Source: a virus
Length of the DNA: 64,000 bases
Direction: 5' to 3' (one strand)
IMG/VR virus record: IMGVR_UViG_3300050821_008818
Coordinates: 1-64,000 of that record
Each line of letters starts with the position of its first letter. Positions within the stretch are counted from its first letter, which is position 1. Position numbers and translations under genes: made by a program. The notes beneath the pieces were generated by a model. That model made no database searches. It was not told the DNA's origin and saw only the letters and a list, made by a program, of their open reading frames with translations. Positions 18,505 through 48,602 of this stretch are shown here, in pieces.

Positions 18505-18672
18505 CTATGATTCACTAAGTTTCACACCTTCTATTTGCTCCATCATTGCCTTGAAAACCTTTTCTGCAATGAAGTTAGAGTCGCTCACCCAATCACGAGA
18601 GTCCCGCACCACCTCGGCGCCAGCCCTGATCATCTCAGGCGTAACAGTAATATGTACGTCAGTACGGATCAC
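18505..18672 (-). CDS. Small helical protein with TPEMIRAGAEVV motif
   Basis: A 55-residue product beginning with GTG at 18672 that overlaps the upstream stop (GTGA). It has a short beta strand (DVHITVTPEMIRAGAEVV) followed by helices. The TPEM-x-RAGAEVL pattern occurs in small phage proteins of unknown function. Confidence 0.6.
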   Translation of the reverse strand: MIRTDVHITVTPEMIRAGAEVVRDSRDWVSDSNFIAEKVFKAMMEQIEGVKLSES

Positions 18673-19049
18673 TTATCTCTCTCAATAAATAGATCGGTGC
18701 ATCCCTTAGGTATCGGCGTGATCTGCTTGCCATCGCGGTCGTAGCAGGTATTAGCAGCATTATTATAATTCGTGATATCAGTCTCATGGGTCAGCTTGCG
18801 GCTACGACGCACATGGGGCCGATCTGGCATATATGCAATATGATCACGACCCCAAAGCTCTTCCGCGCGTTCGAATTCAAACTCATATGGAGCCCGCCGC
18901 GGCTGTGGAGGACTCTGGGGGCGCATCTCTATTTGGACAACCTCGCTGTGATTCTTGCTACTCTCAGTAAAGGCCCATATTCCGAGTGTCAAGATGGTTG
19001 CGAGCCCAGCTAATATTACAACTGCGCGCTTGAATCCCCACCCATTCAT
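18669..19049 (-). CDS. Membrane-anchored small protein (hypothetical)
   Basis: The start chosen is the ATG at 19049 (MNGWGFKRAVVILAGLATIL), 17 bases after the upstream stop; the longer frame overlaps the upstream gene. The 126-residue product has an N-terminal transmembrane helix (about 8-28) and a charged periplasm-facing part with Arg/Pro and Asn-rich stretches and a CYDRDGKQITPIPKGC segment whose two Cys could pair. It is part of the exported set that includes the beta-propeller. Confidence 0.55.
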   Translation of the reverse strand: MNGWGFKRAVVILAGLATILTLGIWAFTESSKNHSEVVQIEMRPQSPPQPRRAPYEFEFERAEELWGRDHIAYMPDRPHVRRSRKLTHETDITNYNNAANTCYDRDGKQITPIPKGCTDLFIERDK

Positions 19050-19065
19050 GCGGGAGTTTTCCAAG

Positions 19066-19377
19066 TCATTTTCCCATTCCTCCCTTATGAACCGCCCCCG
19101 CGAAGAATTTATCACCGCGATACCAGCCATGCACAACCACTACGCGACCAACCTCAATCGGTGAGCCAATATGATCTTCAGACTTCGCGGCTGAAATATT
19201 GACGACCAATTGTTTGCCTGGAGAAGTCTCAATCGCAATATTTTGGGCATCGATCCCAATGATCACACCTGAAACCATCTCTGGATATGCTTGCGCTTGT
19301 GCATAAGGAATCGACGTGTCTCTAAAATCCCCAGCTATAACAGTAAAGGCTAAGATGATCAGAAGAACTTGTAGCAT
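19066..19377 (-). CDS. Exported small OB-fold-like protein
   Basis: The ATG at 19377 (MLQVLLIILAFTVIAG) has GGTG upstream; a TTG six bases earlier overlaps the beta-propeller stop. The 103-residue product has a signal peptide or anchor (about 1-17) and a beta-barrel pattern (VSGVIIGIDAQNIAIETSPG ... IEVGRVVVVHGWYRGDKF) like the DUF5666/OB-fold exported proteins. It directly follows the PQQ-type propeller gene and is probably exported with it. Confidence 0.6.
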   Translation of the reverse strand: MLQVLLIILAFTVIAGDFRDTSIPYAQAQAYPEMVSGVIIGIDAQNIAIETSPGKQLVVNISAAKSEDHIGSPIEVGRVVVVHGWYRGDKFFAGAVHKGGMGK

Positions 19378-19379
19378 CT

Positions 19380-20915
19380 TCAATTCACCCCGAATATCGA
19401 GAGCACCTTGTATGCACCAACATAGACGCGGCCATTTGCAACCAGAGGCACCGTGTTTGGACTAGCGCCGGAGCCGACAAAACCAAATGACCAAGCGCCA
19501 GCATTAGCCGAAAATAGCTGGGTCAGACTGGAGTTGAAAGCATATAGAACCAGTGGATCTTCCTTGGCAACAGCCCAGATTATCTGGCTTCCGGCTGTGG
19601 TACCATTAGAAGAGACAGCAGTGAAAAACCCAGCCTGAATGCCAGTCGTGATAGTGACGTTAAATTCTAGCGGGATCGTAGTCGTGGTAACCTTGCGTGT
19701 TTTGAGAACTGTTCCAAAGCTGGTAACAACTCTTGGCAGCCCATCAGAACCCATGAAATAGCTTTCACCGCACCAGCAACCGCCAAGACCGGTGACAGTT
19801 GTAATCTGCGCTAATGTGTCGCGGTTGAGAAGATAGAGAATGCCATCCTTTCCACCAGCCACAGCCAAATGCGGACTGGTTCCGGCAGCATCAGGCAGCA
19901 ACATCATACCGCCGGCACCAAAGTCATTATCAGCGGTATCAAGGGTGCCAGGATTTGGCTCAGTGAAAATATGGTTTATCGCGAACGTGGTGCTGTTTAG
20001 ACTGAGTGCGCTTTCCTGAACGCTAGTCGTGCCGTTGTAAGTTCCAGAGCCGCCATTGCCGGTCGTGAAGAATATAGTCCCCGGAACACCAGCCAGGCCA
20101 TAGCCAGACATCCAAATCGTGGCCATGTAATAGCCGCCAGTGTTTTGGGTGTCAGTCAGCTCGTTGGCCGCGAGTGGTGCCAACGTATTGACTTTGTAGC
20201 CGATTATCCAGCCTCGGGTAGATCCCGGCGAATCATCACAAAAGCTTGTGAACGCGACATAAACATTGCCATCCTGCAAAAGCAAGGCGACACGCTGGCG
20301 CGCTGTTGACGCGTTGAAGGTGTACTGGGTCGAATCAGTCAGAGTATGCGACGCCGTTATCGTAACCGGAGCCACAACATCGGCAAGTGTCGTAACATCG
20401 ATTGCGTGAATCTGATAGCTCGGCGTCGCTCCGAGATAGGCAACCACATACATTGTGGGAGGCGAAGTAGAAGTATCAATGACAGGAGTGGAGTTGATAC
20501 CTACGTTTGGCCCATTGTTGGTGCATCCTAGTGGAGTAGCTCGAGGAGCGCCAAAATTCCGGCTGTTCAGAACATTCCCAGTATCCGCATCAATGGAATA
20601 GACTGTATTGTTTTCAGTTACGGTATAAACTACGTTATGAGGCGCGCCAGAAATGAAAACGTTATTAAGATACAGCGGTTCTGCATCGATCTGATCGTCG
20701 ACAACAACAGAATGCTGCAAGGCAAAGGCTGCCGGAAATGACGTAGCAGTTAAGAGCGTCTCGTTGCTATTCCATCCGGTACGCAGATTGTCATTATGGT
20801 AGGTGGTTACATTTACCGTTGAAGGCGGAGGCGGCGGCGGAGAAACACACGCGTAAACCGCAATCGCGCCACCAAGTAACAAGAATGCAATAACAATGCA
20901 CCATAAGCTCTTCAT
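19380..20915 (-). CDS. Exported PQQ-dehydrogenase-like beta-propeller
   Basis: A 511-residue protein. Residues 1-22 are a signal sequence ending VYA before Cys23, so it may be a lipoprotein; a run of prolines follows. The rest shows repeating propeller blades, including VVYTVTENNTVYSIDADTG, the Ala/Asp-x-x-Thr-Gly blade motif of PQQ-type proteins, and GKDGILYLLNRDTL. The opening YHNDNLRTGWNSNE is typical of exported bacterial proteins related to quinoprotein dehydrogenases. The adjacent-Cys pair of methanol dehydrogenase is not seen (there is CWC). The ATG shares one base with the stop of the pqqA-like gene and has no ribosome site of its own, so its translation depends on pqqA. Whether it binds PQQ is not shown by the sequence. 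Confidence 0.8.
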   Translation of the reverse strand: MKSLWCIVIAFLLLGGAIAVYACVSPPPPPPSTVNVTTYHNDNLRTGWNSNETLLTATSFPAAFALQHSVVVDDQIDAEPLYLNNVFISGAPHNVVYTVTENNTVYSIDADTGNVLNSRNFGAPRATPLGCTNNGPNVGINSTPVIDTSTSPPTMYVVAYLGATPSYQIHAIDVTTLADVVAPVTITASHTLTDSTQYTFNASTARQRVALLLQDGNVYVAFTSFCDDSPGSTRGWIIGYKVNTLAPLAANELTDTQNTGGYYMATIWMSGYGLAGVPGTIFFTTGNGGSGTYNGTTSVQESALSLNSTTFAINHIFTEPNPGTLDTADNDFGAGGMMLLPDAAGTSPHLAVAGGKDGILYLLNRDTLAQITTVTGLGGCWCGESYFMGSDGLPRVVTSFGTVLKTRKVTTTTIPLEFNVTITTGIQAGFFTAVSSNGTTAGSQIIWAVAKEDPLVLYAFNSSLTQLFSANAGAWSFGFVGSGASPNTVPLVANGRVYVGAYKVLSIFGVN

Positions 20916-21004
20916 TAGAGATCAGCCGATTTGTCTGTTCCAGCGTAGCTGGTAACTTCCATGCCTAGGCAAATTTCAATGATAATAGGCGTAGTCCAAG
21001 TCAT
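20915..21004 (-). CDS. pqqA: PqqA-like PQQ precursor peptide
   Basis: A 29-residue peptide too short for default gene callers. It begins MTWTTP and contains EICLGMEVTSY. The PqqA signature is an N-terminal Trp-x-x-Pro and Glu-x-x-x-Tyr, whose side chains are joined by PqqE to build pyrroloquinoline quinone. Here they are Glu16 and Tyr20, as I recall them in the 29-residue Methylobacterium PqqA, whose core (EICVGMEVTSY) is nearly the same. The ATG overlaps the upstream stop (ATGA), and the stop overlaps the propeller ATG (TAATG). No pqqB, C, D or E is in the window, so host enzymes would be needed. Chance formation of all these residues in a doubly coupled frame is very unlikely. Confidence 0.85.
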   Translation of the reverse strand: MTWTTPIIIEICLGMEVTSYAGTDKSADL

Positions 21005-21195
21005 GATTCCAAATCCCTTAATTCCCTAGCACGATTTGACTCAGCTACCGCAATCCTGACCTGCAATTCCATGCGCAGCAGCAGCACTCCAATATCGTGC
21101 TGATTCTTGAAATCAGATATCATATAGTCGTATCGTGCTTTTATCTCTTGACGCTTACGGTGCGTATCTAAGCCAATCGGATCTCCCGGACACAA
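21001..21195 (-). CDS. Small coiled-coil protein upstream of pqqA
   Basis: A 64-residue helical, charged product (RKRQEIKARYDYMISDF ... AVAESNRARELRDLES). The start is TTG at 21195 directly after the upstream stop, with GGAAGG nine bases before it. The stop overlaps the pqqA ATG. It is unlike PqqD. Unknown role, but co-translated with pqqA. Confidence 0.6.
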   Translation of the reverse strand: MCPGDPIGLDTHRKRQEIKARYDYMISDFKNQHDIGVLLLRMELQVRIAVAESNRARELRDLES

Positions 21196-21357
21196 TTATT
21201 TGCCTTCCGGCGCGGGAGTGCTTCCCTGCATCATATACGCAACTACTGCAACTGTTATCTCGTCCGCTAGCTGCTTTTGCACATCCTCAGGCCATACTGA
21301 GCAATCCATTTCAGATTTCTGGATAGCGTCTAAAATGTAATCTTCCAATAAGATCAT
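21196..21357 (-). CDS. Small acidic protein (hypothetical)
   Basis: A 53-residue helical product (LLEDYILDAIQKSEM ... EITVAVVAYMMQG) with a flexible Pro-rich end. Its ATG overlaps the end of the upstream gene by four bases. Unknown family. Confidence 0.6.
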   Translation of the reverse strand: MILLEDYILDAIQKSEMDCSVWPEDVQKQLADEITVAVVAYMMQGSTPAPEGK

Positions 21358-21602
21358 TTCTTTGGCTCTAGCATATCACGAAGATTGAAATATTCACGGG
21401 CCATAACGCCGCTCTCATGCTCTTCGGTGAATGGCACCTGCGAGAGATAATAGGAAAGCATACCATCCTGCATCGAGTCATGAGATATCTCACCATCCAA
21501 ATCGAAAGGCTGAGGCGCTCCCTTGCCTTGATAGACATATCGCGTCTTTATGTGGCGCGTATCCACCTGATTGAATGGCTGATCCTTTAGCATCCCAACC
21601 AT
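21354..21602 (-). CDS. Small soluble protein (hypothetical)
   Basis: The start is the ATG at 21602, with GAGGAG six bases upstream; a GTG at 21608 overlapping the upstream stop is the alternative. The 82-residue product has a mixed beta/helical pattern (VDTRHIKTRYVYQGKGAPQP ... FTEEHESGVMAREYF). Second gene of the leftward accessory operon that contains pqqA. Confidence 0.65.
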   Translation of the reverse strand: MVGMLKDQPFNQVDTRHIKTRYVYQGKGAPQPFDLDGEISHDSMQDGMLSYYLSQVPFTEEHESGVMAREYFNLRDMLEPKK

Positions 21603-21604
21603 GG

Positions 21605-21814
21605 TCACTCCTCTATCCGAACAGGAACCCGAAGGCCATACTCAGAAGAAATAATCCTACGGCTCCCGATACAAATGTCTTCCAATGCTCGCGGCTGGTC
21701 ATTGGCCACCTCTCCCTCGCAACAATGAACTATTCCAGTACCACCACAATCAGCACATGGATATGGCGACTGGTGGCAGCTATTACCAGTCCCATGGCAT
21801 CGATAGCATTGCAT
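21605..21814 (-). CDS. Zinc-ribbon small protein, first gene of the pqqA operon
   Basis: A 69-residue protein with CYRCHGTGNSC and CADCGGTG, a DnaJ-type zinc module, and a soluble C-terminal half. It is the first gene leftwards from the divergent control region at 21.8-22.1 kb and so heads the run of small genes leading through pqqA to terS. Confidence 0.65.
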   Translation of the reverse strand: MQCYRCHGTGNSCHQSPYPCADCGGTGIVHCCEGEVANDQPRALEDICIGSRRIISSEYGLRVPVRIEE

Positions 21815-21849
21815 TAGGCAAACTATTTTCCCCTAGCTGCATTATGTCA

Positions 21850-21877
21850 TTGACATTTCAGCAAATATGCATATATT
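21850..21877 (+). promoter_or_regulatory. Rightward promoter with palindromic operator
   Basis: TTGACA at 21850-21855 and TATATT at 21872-21877, 16 bases apart. The -35 box lies in the inverted repeat TGTCA-T-TGACA (21845-21855), a likely repressor site. On the opposite strand a TATAAT (21881-21886) may serve the leftward pqqA operon. Confidence 0.6.
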
Positions 21878-21899
21878 AGTATTATAGACAGCAGGGAGG

Positions 21900-22075
21900 G
21901 ACAGGAAGAGTTTCGCCATGGGCCGCGCGCTGCAGCGCAATGTCAGCGACCCATAGCGAAGCCCGTAACCACTCGAGCAAGACGGCGGCTGGGCAGACTG
22001 TGCCAACTATCACGCATCAGCTAGTGCTCACGCGTGACCGGCATGGAGCCGCCGAATACATCAAACAGGAGAAAC
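21900..22075 (+). promoter_or_regulatory. Structured 5' leader RNA
   Basis: About 200 bases between the promoter and the ATG at 22082 contain a 12-base palindrome (GCGCTGCAGCGC, 21927-21938). They also contain two nested stems, CGGCGGCT/AGCCGCCG (21983-21990 with 22047-22054) enclosing TCACGC/GCGTGA (22010-22015 with 22032-22037). A 12-codon reading frame (MGRALQRNVSDP) with a GGAAGAG site starts at 21918. Together they suggest a cis-acting leader or a small RNA. Confidence 0.45.
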
Positions 22076-43582: not shown

Positions 43583-46500
43583 TTATGGATGGTAGGTGAG
43601 AACCAGCACGCCTTGGGCACCAACTGACCCTCCAGCGCCATTAGCAGATGCGGCCGCTCCGCCATAAAGACCACCGGCACCGGCAATATGAGTTCCGCCG
43701 CCGCCGTTTCCACCGCCTCCGCCGCCGGAGCCGGCACTGACGGAGGGCCACTCATTGCCGTTGCCGCCATTACCGCCAGCTGAGGATGTTGTACCATTGC
43801 CGAAGCCACCACCACCGCCTCCGCCAGCAGTTCCGATTGCTCCGGGGGCAGCTGTGGAAGTTGCGCCTGTGCCGCCGCCACTCCCGCCTGAGTTGTTGCC
43901 ACCGGCTCCGCCATTGCCACCGGTGCTCGCGGTTGCGCCTATCGTGCCGCCGCCACCTCCTCCGCCGCCACCGCCGCCATAGCCTGGCGTAAGATTATCA
44001 CCGTTTGCCCCGCCAACACCATTTGGGCCTCCAGCGCCTGCGCCTCCTGTGGTTCCTTGACCAGAAGAGACGATATGCGAGGTAGACCCACCGGCGTTAC
44101 ATGTACCGGTGCCGCCAGTGCCGCCTGTGCCACCCGAGGGGTTGGTGCCGCCACCACCTCCATGAGCAATGAGCGAAGAGGTATTCCATGTGGTGTTGGT
44201 TCCGGAACCAACGCTACCCGCCCCAATGGTATAGGAAACGGTTGTAACGCCGGGAGTGGCAACAGTGAAGTTACTGATCTTGCAGTATTCGCCGCCGCCT
44301 CCGCCGTAGCCAGTAGTTCCGTTTCCACCGCCGGCCCCAATTCCTTCGATTGTGTTATTGGAGTTGTTCCAATCCGGCGGAGAAGTCCATGTGGTGCCAG
44401 AAAGGAGGGCCTGCTGGCAGAATCCGCCTGCAATTGAAGTCCATCCAGCCTGACAGCTTGGCGGAGCAATAGCGGCAGCTGCTATGGATGGCGTCGGATC
44501 TCCAACCCAAGTACATGAAAGCGGTGGTCCGGCTGTGCAGCTAAGTTGCGGCACAATGACCTGTACTGAAGCAGGAGCTGAAGTGTCACATGTGACTGTG
44601 TAAGTTGTAGTTACCAATGGCGTGACTTGCACGCTTCCAGAGGTCGCTCCACCAGTTGAGAAGTTTGTCCCTGTGCAAGCAGACGCATTGACCGAAGACC
44701 ACGAAATTGTGGCTGCATTGCTTGGAACCGCCGTCACATTCGACATTATCGATGCTGACGAACTGGCATTCACAGTAACCGTAGCGGTTGCTGGCGTAGT
44801 CGCCCCACCAGCATCGCACGCGACCGAGTAAGTCGTTGTGCTAGTTGGGCTGACCACAAGAGTTCCCGACGCGGCATTGCCGGTCGAAAAGCCAGTTCCT
44901 ACGCAGCGTGTACCATTTGAGGACCATGCCAGTGTGCTGTTATCTCCCGAAAGCACCGCCGGCGAACCAATGTTTGCAGGATCAAAGGTGGTCGTTGGTC
45001 CCCACGCCGTGAACCCAGATGGAGGGGTTACAATATTAAATGTGGGGCCGGTATTTAAAGAGAGCGATTCACCATTTACCGCGCCAACGTCTGCCGTAAT
45101 AAAATACGGCCCAGCATTTAAACCGGCAATTGAATACCCTCCAGTGTTCGTCGCTGGATTCTGATTAGCTATAACATCGTTGTTCCATCCACCGCCTTGA
45201 GTGATATTTTTCACCCAAAGTTTATTATTCGTGAAATCAACCGCGAAACCGATAACATCGTTGGCAACTCCTGTTACGAAGTTCGTATTGGTGTGCGCAT
45301 TGTTTATAAAGATATTGCCATTATTCCACTCCCAACCAATTCCGTTTAAATCAACGCCAACAAAATTTGTCAGGCTTTCCGACGAATTGGCAATTCCTAC
45401 CATCGTGTTTGCTGAACTAATTCCGGTTCCGAGCTTAACCTCGAAATAGGCTTGTGCCGGAGCAGCTCCTGAAGAAGTCGTCGAACGAGATGCTCCAATC
45501 GATGCGCCGGTAGAATTAGTAAGAACCGAATTCATCGATATCGTGGGCGGCGTAGCGGAGAGACTCGCCGTAACTGGGTTTACAGTAATCGTAGTGCTTG
45601 CTGGAGTCGTCGCGCCTCCATTATCGCACGCCACGCCATATGTGGTTGTAGTCGTGGGAGTAACCAAAAGCGATCCCGACGGAGCATTCCCAGTCGAGAA
45701 ATTTGTCCCTACGCACCTAGTTCCATTGGTGCCCCATGTGAGCGTGGTGTTTTGCCCATTGAGAATTGTATTAGAACTAGCGGTCAAGGTGGCTGTTACT
45801 GCCGATACGTTGACAGTGACACTCGAATTAACCGGAGTTCCTCCGCTATCGCATGCAATGCTATATGTGGTATTAACAGTAGGATGGACTACAAGAGTTC
45901 CATTGGTGGCATTGCCAGTCGAGAAATTAGTCCCTACACATTTTACCGTAGCGTTTGATTGCCATGTAAGCGTATCGGCACCACCGCTGATGACAGTTGG
46001 GGAAGACGCGGTCAAGGTTGCGTTCAATGCGGAATTTACCGTGACCGTTTGACTTGCTGTGGCCGCTACCCCACCAGCATCGCAGGAGATACTATAAGTG
46101 GTTGTAGCGGTTGGATTAACCACCAATGAACCTGAAGTCGCGTTATTGGTATTAGTAAATCCGGTGCTAATACAGCGGGTAGAATTCATAGAATTCCACA
46201 TTAGTGTGCTGGGTTGACCAACATTGACGGCTGTGGGAGTTGCCGACAGCATGGCCGTCGGCATATTAAGAACTTCTACACCGTCTATCTTTGCATTGGC
46301 ATCTGTATGACCTGCAACGGCAGTTAAGGTAATAGTAATCTTTCCAAACGAGTCAGCGACTTGGCTGAAGCATTCAACAACTGCTTTGTTTTTAGCTCCG
46401 GCCGTTGCAAAAATATCAAAGTTTGAAAGAACCGTTGTACCATTCAATGCGATATTGAAGACGCGCGCACCGATAGCAAAATCAGGAGCATAATCTTCCG

Positions 46501-48286
46501 TAAAATGGAGTCTCACCGAATAAGCCTTGCCAGGCGTCAATCCATCTACCGTATACGTGAGGGGATTATCCCAACGTTCCGTGCGATAAACGGCTGTGGG
46601 AGCCGGATTCACCACCAAGCTTGTATCAACAGTACCAGTTGGATTATTATTTGCTACGTTGCCATGGACCACCGTAAAGTGAGTATCAGCAATAAATGAT
46701 GCTTGCGGTGGAGCACCGGTTACCGCCGGGCCACCGGAATTTATGCTTGCCGGACCCAAACCAGGGCAGGGCGGCAACGGAGATATTCCGCACCCTGAAG
46801 TCGCAACATTGAACGCGCCCACGTTAGGAGGGCTCGGAGGAGACAGGCCATCCGGAGTCATGAACGCAAAGTGAGAGGTTATCAGAGTCGCGCCGGAACC
46901 TAGAGCTGGCGATCCACTCTGCGGATGCATATCTCTCGGACTGCCGTTGAGATTTGCAACGTTCGGGTTAACCCCCAAAAGAGGATTCGCGGCCGCTACG
47001 GCAAGACCGCCCTGAAAGCTAGCTCCGCCGCTGACCGTGTCAAAAGACTCATTATTCGTGATCCCAGTAGCGTTGGCGCCGACGACATTGTAAGCGGCTT
47101 GAGAACCCGTCCCTAGCCGGATTGCCAAATTGTTTTGCAGTGTGCTTAACGTGCCGTTTTGATTCCAGCCGGGGATGCCGAGTGATACGATGCCGGCCGA
47201 TTCAAATTCCTTACAGCCGCGATTCGTTACCACTGTGGGATCTAAACAGTTATTTACAAGCGTGTTGTTTTCGAATACCACATTACCGGAGGTGTATTGT
47301 AGAATACCCTTTCCACCTGTGTTATAGACATAATTAAAGGCTACAAGTCCCTTCCCAGTGTATTGTACATGGGGGGCATTTTGGCTATCGTTCCAATCGT
47401 CAAGGATAATCCCCTCCCCATCGGTATGGGGATTGGTGCCGTTATTGATGCTGGCAGTCTCGCCGCCGTCGTGGATCACATTGCCTAAGATCTGTACGAC
47501 ATATGTATCACTCTCCCACGTTCCTGTTCCCGTAGTAGCTTTTTCTTCATAAAAATTAACACCTGATGTGTGGTTGCCATTTACCCCGGAAAAGTCATAT
47601 ACCTCGTTTGCAATAAGATAATCATGATCATTCGATCCAGACGTCCCAAGAACACCAGCGCCGCACCCGTGAAGAATGCTGTTCATAACGATATGATGGC
47701 TGCTGTTATTTGCAAACATCTGGTTACAGGAATATGTGTTTGTATTAGTTTCTTTGTAACCGGTGTACCCCTGGATGTTGTGACCGTCTATTTCAAATCC
47801 ATCTAATGCAATATACGTGGCATTAAGATTGATCGGGTTATTGGCGGTTGAACCGATGTAACAACCATGGTTTACCGAGCATACATAGGTGATGAAACCG
47901 TTTGCTTGGTTGGCAGTTCCACCGCGGCTAAACGTTGCTGTGGTGGTTTTATTATAGGCGGTCCAACCGCTTGAGCCGAGGGTCGTCTCTGTTGGCGTAG
48001 TTCCCAAAACATTGACGCAATCACCACCGGTTAGTGTAGTTCCTGTAGCCCCGATGCTTGTGGCTGCATCTGCGCCCCATGGTGTAGCGCAATTAGAGGC
48101 GCCATATGGATTTGTCCCGGCAGAAGCGCCGCAAGTAGCCGTGTCAGCGCCGGCCGGCGAAACATAGAAATTGCGGGTGCACGTGAGCGGAGAGGTATAG
48201 TGCGCTGGCGCAGCCGTGGTTGCAAAGGCCTGCCCGGAAAAAAGAAAAGCACCAAACGCGGCACCAAGTAAAGCCTTGAAATTCAT
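43583..48286 (-). CDS. Giant exported multidomain protein with beta-helix, malectin and Ig-like repeats
   Basis: Start ATG 48286 with AAGGGAAT upstream (1567 residues). A signal peptide ends QAFA. Then, roughly: a right-handed beta-helix (40-480); a malectin-like sugar-binding domain (about 570-720, with YRTERWDNPLTYTVDGLTPG and RVFNIALNGTTVL); Ig-like repeats (units with GTNFSTGNA and TTTYSVACD, about six); a SPRY/lectin-like domain (about 950-1130); and a Gly-rich end (from about 1340). Gly-rich ends and helices are known from phage fibres, but a signal peptide is not. It may be a receptor-binding fibre or a protein exported by the lysogen. Confidence 0.75.
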   Translation of the reverse strand: MNFKALLGAAFGAFLFSGQAFATTAAPAHYTSPLTCTRNFYVSPAGADTATCGASAGTNPYGASNCATPWGADAATSIGATGTTLTGGDCVNVLGTTPTETTLGSSGWTAYNKTTTATFSRGGTANQANGFITYVCSVNHGCYIGSTANNPINLNATYIALDGFEIDGHNIQGYTGYKETNTNTYSCNQMFANNSSHHIVMNSILHGCGAGVLGTSGSNDHDYLIANEVYDFSGVNGNHTSGVNFYEEKATTGTGTWESDTYVVQILGNVIHDGGETASINNGTNPHTDGEGIILDDWNDSQNAPHVQYTGKGLVAFNYVYNTGGKGILQYTSGNVVFENNTLVNNCLDPTVVTNRGCKEFESAGIVSLGIPGWNQNGTLSTLQNNLAIRLGTGSQAAYNVVGANATGITNNESFDTVSGGASFQGGLAVAAANPLLGVNPNVANLNGSPRDMHPQSGSPALGSGATLITSHFAFMTPDGLSPPSPPNVGAFNVATSGCGISPLPPCPGLGPASINSGGPAVTGAPPQASFIADTHFTVVHGNVANNNPTGTVDTSLVVNPAPTAVYRTERWDNPLTYTVDGLTPGKAYSVRLHFTEDYAPDFAIGARVFNIALNGTTVLSNFDIFATAGAKNKAVVECFSQVADSFGKITITLTAVAGHTDANAKIDGVEVLNMPTAMLSATPTAVNVGQPSTLMWNSMNSTRCISTGFTNTNNATSGSLVVNPTATTTYSISCDAGGVAATASQTVTVNSALNATLTASSPTVISGGADTLTWQSNATVKCVGTNFSTGNATNGTLVVHPTVNTTYSIACDSGGTPVNSSVTVNVSAVTATLTASSNTILNGQNTTLTWGTNGTRCVGTNFSTGNAPSGSLLVTPTTTTTYGVACDNGGATTPASTTITVNPVTASLSATPPTISMNSVLTNSTGASIGASRSTTSSGAAPAQAYFEVKLGTGISSANTMVGIANSSESLTNFVGVDLNGIGWEWNNGNIFINNAHTNTNFVTGVANDVIGFAVDFTNNKLWVKNITQGGGWNNDVIANQNPATNTGGYSIAGLNAGPYFITADVGAVNGESLSLNTGPTFNIVTPPSGFTAWGPTTTFDPANIGSPAVLSGDNSTLAWSSNGTRCVGTGFSTGNAASGTLVVSPTSTTTYSVACDAGGATTPATATVTVNASSSASIMSNVTAVPSNAATISWSSVNASACTGTNFSTGGATSGSVQVTPLVTTTYTVTCDTSAPASVQVIVPQLSCTAGPPLSCTWVGDPTPSIAAAAIAPPSCQAGWTSIAGGFCQQALLSGTTWTSPPDWNNSNNTIEGIGAGGGNGTTGYGGGGGEYCKISNFTVATPGVTTVSYTIGAGSVGSGTNTTWNTSSLIAHGGGGGTNPSGGTGGTGGTGTCNAGGSTSHIVSSGQGTTGGAGAGGPNGVGGANGDNLTPGYGGGGGGGGGGGTIGATASTGGNGGAGGNNSGGSGGGTGATSTAAPGAIGTAGGGGGGGFGNGTTSSAGGNGGNGNEWPSVSAGSGGGGGGNGGGGTHIAGAGGLYGGAAASANGAGGSVGAQGVLVLTYHP

Positions 48287-48305
48287 AACAAATTCCCTTA
48301 TAAAA

Positions 48306-48602
48306 TCAAGCCGCAACAGCGGCGTCTGTAGATTGAACACGCCAAAGTGCGTTCGAAAAATACACAGGAACACCGGTTCCCAATCCAGCACCCTCACCGA
48401 CCTTTCGCCCGTTAGTGGCGTAGGCTCTCATGCCTTCACTTCCCGCTGGAAGCGTGGCAACTGTGAATGTATTGAGGCCTTGAGAATCGAGAATGTCCTG
48501 AGTTACACCACGCAAGACACCGGGGGTAATAGCTCCCACCGTATTGTCTGCAAGCGACGTTCCTATTTCTGTCGTAAGAGCTGCATATGTTTTAAGCGTC
48601 AT
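48306..48602 (-). CDS. Small fibre-associated protein
   Basis: A 98-residue product with TLKTYAALTTEIGTSLADNT and VLRGVTQDILDSQGLNTFT, similar in style to small tail fibre connector proteins of phages. It lies between the Gly-rich tail fibre and the giant protein. Role inferred from position. Confidence 0.6.
   Translation of the reverse strand: MTLKTYAALTTEIGTSLADNTVGAITPGVLRGVTQDILDSQGLNTFTVATLPAGSEGMRAYATNGRKVGEGAGLGTGVPVYFSNALWRVQSTDAAVAA

Follow-up and report, generated by a model that had tools for sequence, protein, structure and literature searches.

Bacteria synthesize the redox cofactor PQQ from a small peptide, PqqA. A glutamate and a tyrosine of PqqA are joined by PqqE, and the peptide is consumed stoichiometrically, one molecule per PQQ. 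The PQQ-type dehydrogenases are periplasmic, eight-bladed beta-propellers with a PQQ pocket. A virus from Lake Baikal carrying pqqA together with a methanol dehydrogenase gene was described previously, and a boost of PQQ-dependent oxidation in the host was proposed (Coutinho et al. 2020, PMC7678222). In addition, viral pqqA, pqqE and pqqD genes were listed in a 2026 reservoir study (PMC13188868). Phage pqqA itself is already known, and the remark of the earlier note that no phage unit of this kind had been described could not be upheld, since the Baikal virus was already published and many virus contigs contain pqqA. A phage pqqA gene paired with a beta-propeller gene was not found in full-text literature searches; this pairing, and a distribution of phage pqqA broader than found described, are new.

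The stretch of 64,000 nucleotides analysed here (the window) covers most of a virus contig of 71,363 bases (G000; IMG/VR record IMGVR_UViG_3300050821_008818). Genes for a large terminase, portal, baseplate, tape measure, neck protein, primase, repressor and tyrosine integrase were recognized in the record, and this gene content identifies it as a temperate tailed phage. The terminase relatives in named genomes were mostly alphaproteobacterial, many of them from Hyphomicrobiales, and PqqA is encoded in five of eight such genomes. The phage host, as judged from these relatives, is probably a Hyphomicrobiales-like alphaproteobacterium and would be capable of making PQQ. The genes of the pqqA locus are all located on the minus strand (Table 1).

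Table 1. Coordinates of the pqqA locus and of further frames in the window
Feature	Position	Strand	Remarks
64-codon frame	21001..21195	-	TTG start; stop overlaps pqqA start codon; no match in family profile searches
pqqA	20915..21004	-	29 codons; PF08042 and TIGR02107 matches
Beta-propeller, exported, probable lipoprotein, quinoprotein/BamB fold class	19380..20915	-	511 codons
Small exported-looking protein	19066..19383	-	105 codons; TTG start; overlaps propeller end; hydrophobic N-terminus (hydropathy); no match in Pfam, PHROG or NCBIfam
Mini-frame	19046..19069	-	7 codons; ATGA overlaps on both sides
Next downstream gene	18669..19136	-	C-terminal part common to sister phage; marks cargo end
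Large frame with repeated blocks	43583..48397	-	1604 codons

The stop of the upstream frame is located at 21001 within the ATG of the peptide (ATGA junction), and the stop of the peptide shares one base with the ATG of the propeller gene (TAATG junction). A Shine-Dalgarno-like AAGGG precedes pqqA, and the propeller frame starts with a hydrophobic N-terminus. The 29-codon frame with W3, P6, E16 and Y20 and its overlaps at both ends, as described in the earlier note, were borne out by this reading of the sequence. The mini-frame ATGACTTGGAAAACTCCCGCATGA (MTWKTPA*), located between the 105-codon gene and the next gene, has the same first codons as pqqA and may be what is left of a second, truncated copy of this gene. 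The sequence ATGACTTGG occurs in the window only at pqqA and at the mini-frame; about 0.5 such sites are expected by chance. The large frame contains SATPTAVNVGQPSTLMWNS-like and Gly-rich blocks and resembles a large tail or adhesin-like protein.

The peptide MTWTTPIIIEICLGMEVTSYAGTDKSADL contains W3, P6, G14, E16 and Y20, and the cross-link pair E16/Y20 with three residues between is intact. It was matched by PF08042 with 39.2 bits (cut-off 21.1, E = 6.4e-10) and by the equivalog model TIGR02107 with 38.5 bits (cut-off 20, E = 7.3e-10). The motif W..P...E[IV]..G[ML]E[VI]T.Y was found once in the real window and in none of 200 shuffled windows. On the basis of these matches the peptide is classified as a genuine PqqA, as proposed before. 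PqqE was not detected by profile search in the whole phage record, which extends the previous observation on the window, and pqqA has no adjoining pqqBCDE; this neighbourhood is usual, not universal, for PqqA and is not required for membership. The fate of the peptide thus depends on the host, which would also agree with a decoy or with the precursor of a modified product other than PQQ. Such a role is most improbable given the strong TIGR02107 match and the intact E-x-x-x-Y pair, and no other RiPP maturase was recognized among the genes checked.

Among 297 genomes of the Hyphomicrobiales (the order of a Xanthobacter), 20 encode a PqqA that resembles the one from the phage (E <= 1e-3), and the nearest ones, of the EICVGMEVTSY type, have 61-63% identity over 23-24 residues. 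Neither the peptide nor the propeller was found by sequence search of phage records or the PDB.

The closest viral relative found, a sister phage (G001), has a terminase 93% identical to that of the window phage and is collinear with it over the aligned stretches. It contains neither pqqA nor the propeller gene, and the alignment jumps from window position 18746 to 21959; the stretch 18668-18746 has 88.6% nucleotide identity to the sister phage (L221). The genes flanking the pair are common to both phages, so that, as in auxiliary metabolic genes, the pair lies between phage genes and is non-essential. Because the collinear sister phage is devoid of both genes, pqqA and the propeller gene are regarded, from this genome comparison, as accessory cargo within a phage region and not as contig contamination. 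The absence of pqqA from the sister phage would also agree with a functionless host fragment that was picked up recently, and tandem pqqA copies are present in some Hyphomicrobiales. This explanation is very unlikely, since the frame is full-length, is preceded by a ribosome site, overlaps both neighbours, diverges by about 40% from the nearest cellular PqqA found, and belongs to a gene under purifying selection in phages elsewhere (see below).

An earlier strict DNA pattern for PqqA had yielded mostly chance frames and one true PqqA. With a wider pattern, 118 PqqA-like short frames were obtained among the 120 viral stretches listed; one contig was added from the earlier scan. PqqA peptides are thus present in at least 119 IMG/VR contigs, with 70 distinct peptides besides that of the window, and mostly of the betaproteobacterial type. 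All 70 match both PqqA HMMs (PF08042 and TIGR02107); one further variant with unknown residues was left out of this test. W, P, G, E and Y are invariant across the viral peptides, these five positions being required by the search pattern. The invariance of Glu16 and Tyr20 is therefore in part built into the search. At codons unconstrained by the pattern, pN/pS was 0.29 in the largest group, which is betaproteobacterial-like, and reached 0.47 in the GLEI group; both values are indicative at such high divergence. In the representative contigs and clusters checked, pqqA was accompanied by genes for exonuclease, endolysin, Sak-like annealing protein, major head protein, terminase, portal, holin and recombination functions. 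PqqE above cut-off was found in none of 50 PqqA-bearing virus records tested, and a PQQ dehydrogenase in one of them; many of these records are fragments, which makes the absences soft. The survey indicates that pqqA carriage is a common viral strategy. Viral pqqA has probably been missed by gene callers because it is so short.

The one record with a PQQ dehydrogenase (G057, IMGVR_UViG_3300025120_009955; 72 kb) combines pqqA with genes for a PQQ methanol dehydrogenase (607.9 bits, cut-off 480) and for a formate dehydrogenase-like protein, a possible set for the oxidation of methanol to CO2. It resembles the published Baikal virus with pqqA and a PQQ methanol dehydrogenase. In the section G057:C1:26000-45000 (L315), the 624-aa methanol dehydrogenase is followed directly by the 946-aa formate dehydrogenase-like protein. 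The section also encodes curlin-like repeat proteins, and pqqA is located about 6 kb downstream.

The propeller scored 16.8 bits against PQQ_2 (cut-off 27.6), remained below the cut-off of the Pfam PQQ family as well, and had no NCBIfam match at E <= 1. Its best relatives, with 31-39% identity over most of the length, are encoded on chromids or plasmids of Caballeronia, Paraburkholderia and Acidisarcina, and some of them are annotated as 'PQQ-binding-like beta-propeller'; most of the bacterial relatives are also below the PQQ and PQQ_2 cut-offs. Judged by these matches, the propeller belongs, within the quinoprotein/BamB fold class, to a family of lipoprotein-like proteins that is represented in Caballeronia, Paraburkholderia and Acidobacteria. 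It was detected in none of the 297 Hyphomicrobiales genomes, with seven of seven positive controls detected, which points to another origin; the propeller is probably not derived from this lineage. Sequence-profile searches with the propeller reached quinoprotein ethanol dehydrogenase and BamB (E about 1e-3). A model built by AlphaFold from a three-sequence alignment had a propeller fold at low confidence (pLDDT 42, pTM 0.53); its best PDB matches were BamB, with XoxF at rank 30. The single-sequence model reached a pLDDT of 33, and a PQQ pocket was not inferred from either model because of these low values.

These results favour a protein devoid of PQQ binding, either an 'empty' quinoprotein or a BamB-like envelope lipoprotein, which alters the lysogen surface, e.g. 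by superinfection exclusion, adhesion or envelope protection, with pqqA as independent cargo in the same cassette; for this explanation the evidence is evenly balanced. It is also favoured by the absence from the propeller of the vicinal Cys-Cys pair of methanol/ethanol-type dehydrogenases (a single Cys131 is present in that stretch) and by the replacement, in the global alignment, of the metal-binding Glu and of the second-blade PQQ-contact Arg. However, N287, D331 and K356 are invariant in all eight propeller family members and, in a weak alignment, fall on three dehydrogenase residues, the metal Asn, the catalytic Asp and a PQQ-contact Arg; the sequence-profile search covered the same stretch. 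Membrane glucose dehydrogenase has the catalytic Asp, Lys in place of this Arg, and no Cys-Cys pair, so that the residue combination of the propeller is compatible with, but not evidence for, PQQ use. Furthermore, one propeller relative adjoins a PQQ glucose dehydrogenase gene on a Caballeronia plasmid.

Use of PQQ by the propeller is rather doubtful, and the same applies to a true PQQ-dependent oxidoreductase for which the phage supplies both cofactor precursor and apoenzyme. For such an enzyme speak the translational overlap with pqqA, the three invariant active-site-like residues, the pairing of pqqA with a PQQ dehydrogenase in the 72-kb record, and a single global profile comparison in which the propeller was collinear over its whole length with PQQ dehydrogenases of the methanol/ethanol family (probability 88.5). 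The best local profile comparison was nevertheless weak (probability 55.6, first blades only), Trp268 does not fall on the floor tryptophan of the dehydrogenases in the global alignment, the structure model is poor, and the host-lineage genomes are devoid of the propeller. The points listed for an empty or BamB-like protein count against the enzyme as well.

The peptide-propeller pair, for which the earlier note had proposed a search, was not recovered from other phages. Profile and pattern searches of viral contigs revealed propeller relatives, 35-37% identical, in only two others (L313 and L314), which each contain a terminase gene but no pqqA, an outcome which the earlier note had named as speaking against its reading and which likewise favours a propeller independent of PQQ; a search for close relatives in viral contigs gave no match. 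These two contigs and the sister phage with neither gene led to the rejection of pqqA and propeller as a fixed pair in phages. In both contigs the propeller gene is located downstream of a large terminase gene. It is near terminase genes in the window as well; this site may be a shared cargo site for the propeller.

The reading preferred here, which we consider somewhat more probable than its negation, is that of an accessory operon of a temperate phage in which pqqA feeds the PQQ pathway of the host and the overlapping propeller gene is co-translated and its product exported. PqqA would be produced in infected cells or in lysogens and then be processed by the host's own PqqD, PqqE, PqqB and PqqC enzymes. 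Because one PqqA is consumed per PQQ, extra PqqA would raise the PQQ output without any phage enzyme, provided that precursor supply is limiting. More PQQ would then be available in the periplasm, where quinoproteins deliver electrons to respiration. Stop-start coupling would allow the propeller to be translated from the pqqA message; after export it would probably be held in the periplasm by a lipid anchor. Two points speak against this reading: the sister phage does well without the cargo, and the constancy of E16 and Y20 in the viral peptides is partly a product of the search pattern. In most cases the metabolic genes of phages code for enzymes; PqqA, in contrast, is a consumed substrate of a host pathway, and therefore a single gene of 23-29 codons could raise cofactor supply. 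A more specific version, a two-gene unit of cofactor and apoenzyme in which the phage provides the PQQ precursor and its own exported PQQ-dependent oxidoreductase of an uncharacterised family, is unlikely; if true, lysogens would gain a new periplasmic oxidation. The pairing allows a direct test of whether this quinoprotein-fold family uses PQQ.

Compared with the PqqA family (PF08042, TIGR02107), the phage peptide has the full HMM match, the length and the W/P/G/E/Y pattern, but is phage-borne, is not accompanied by pqqBCDE, and ends, after Tyr20, in a sequence (AGTDKSADL) that differs from the tails common in hosts. The propeller resembles the TIGR03075 PQQ dehydrogenases and the TIGR04528 'acido-empty-quinoprotein' group in its predicted fold and in the weakly aligned Asn, Asp and Lys, and differs from them in the missing NCBIfam match, the missing Cys-Cys pair and the replaced metal Glu and PQQ-contact Arg. 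With the 'PQQ-binding-like beta-propeller repeat' lipoproteins of Caballeronia, Paraburkholderia and Acidobacteria it has the invariant W268, N287, D331 and K356 in common; among viral contigs the family was found in only three, including the window, and beside pqqA only here. The closest described systems are the Baikal virus populations VP_266 and VP_139 (PMC7678222), which, like the window phage, carry pqqA (VP_266) and a quinoprotein gene in a phage genome. The Baikal quinoprotein is the methanol dehydrogenase of a methylotroph virus, whereas the window phage combines pqqA with an overlapping gene for a divergent exported propeller and, in addition, encodes an integrase.
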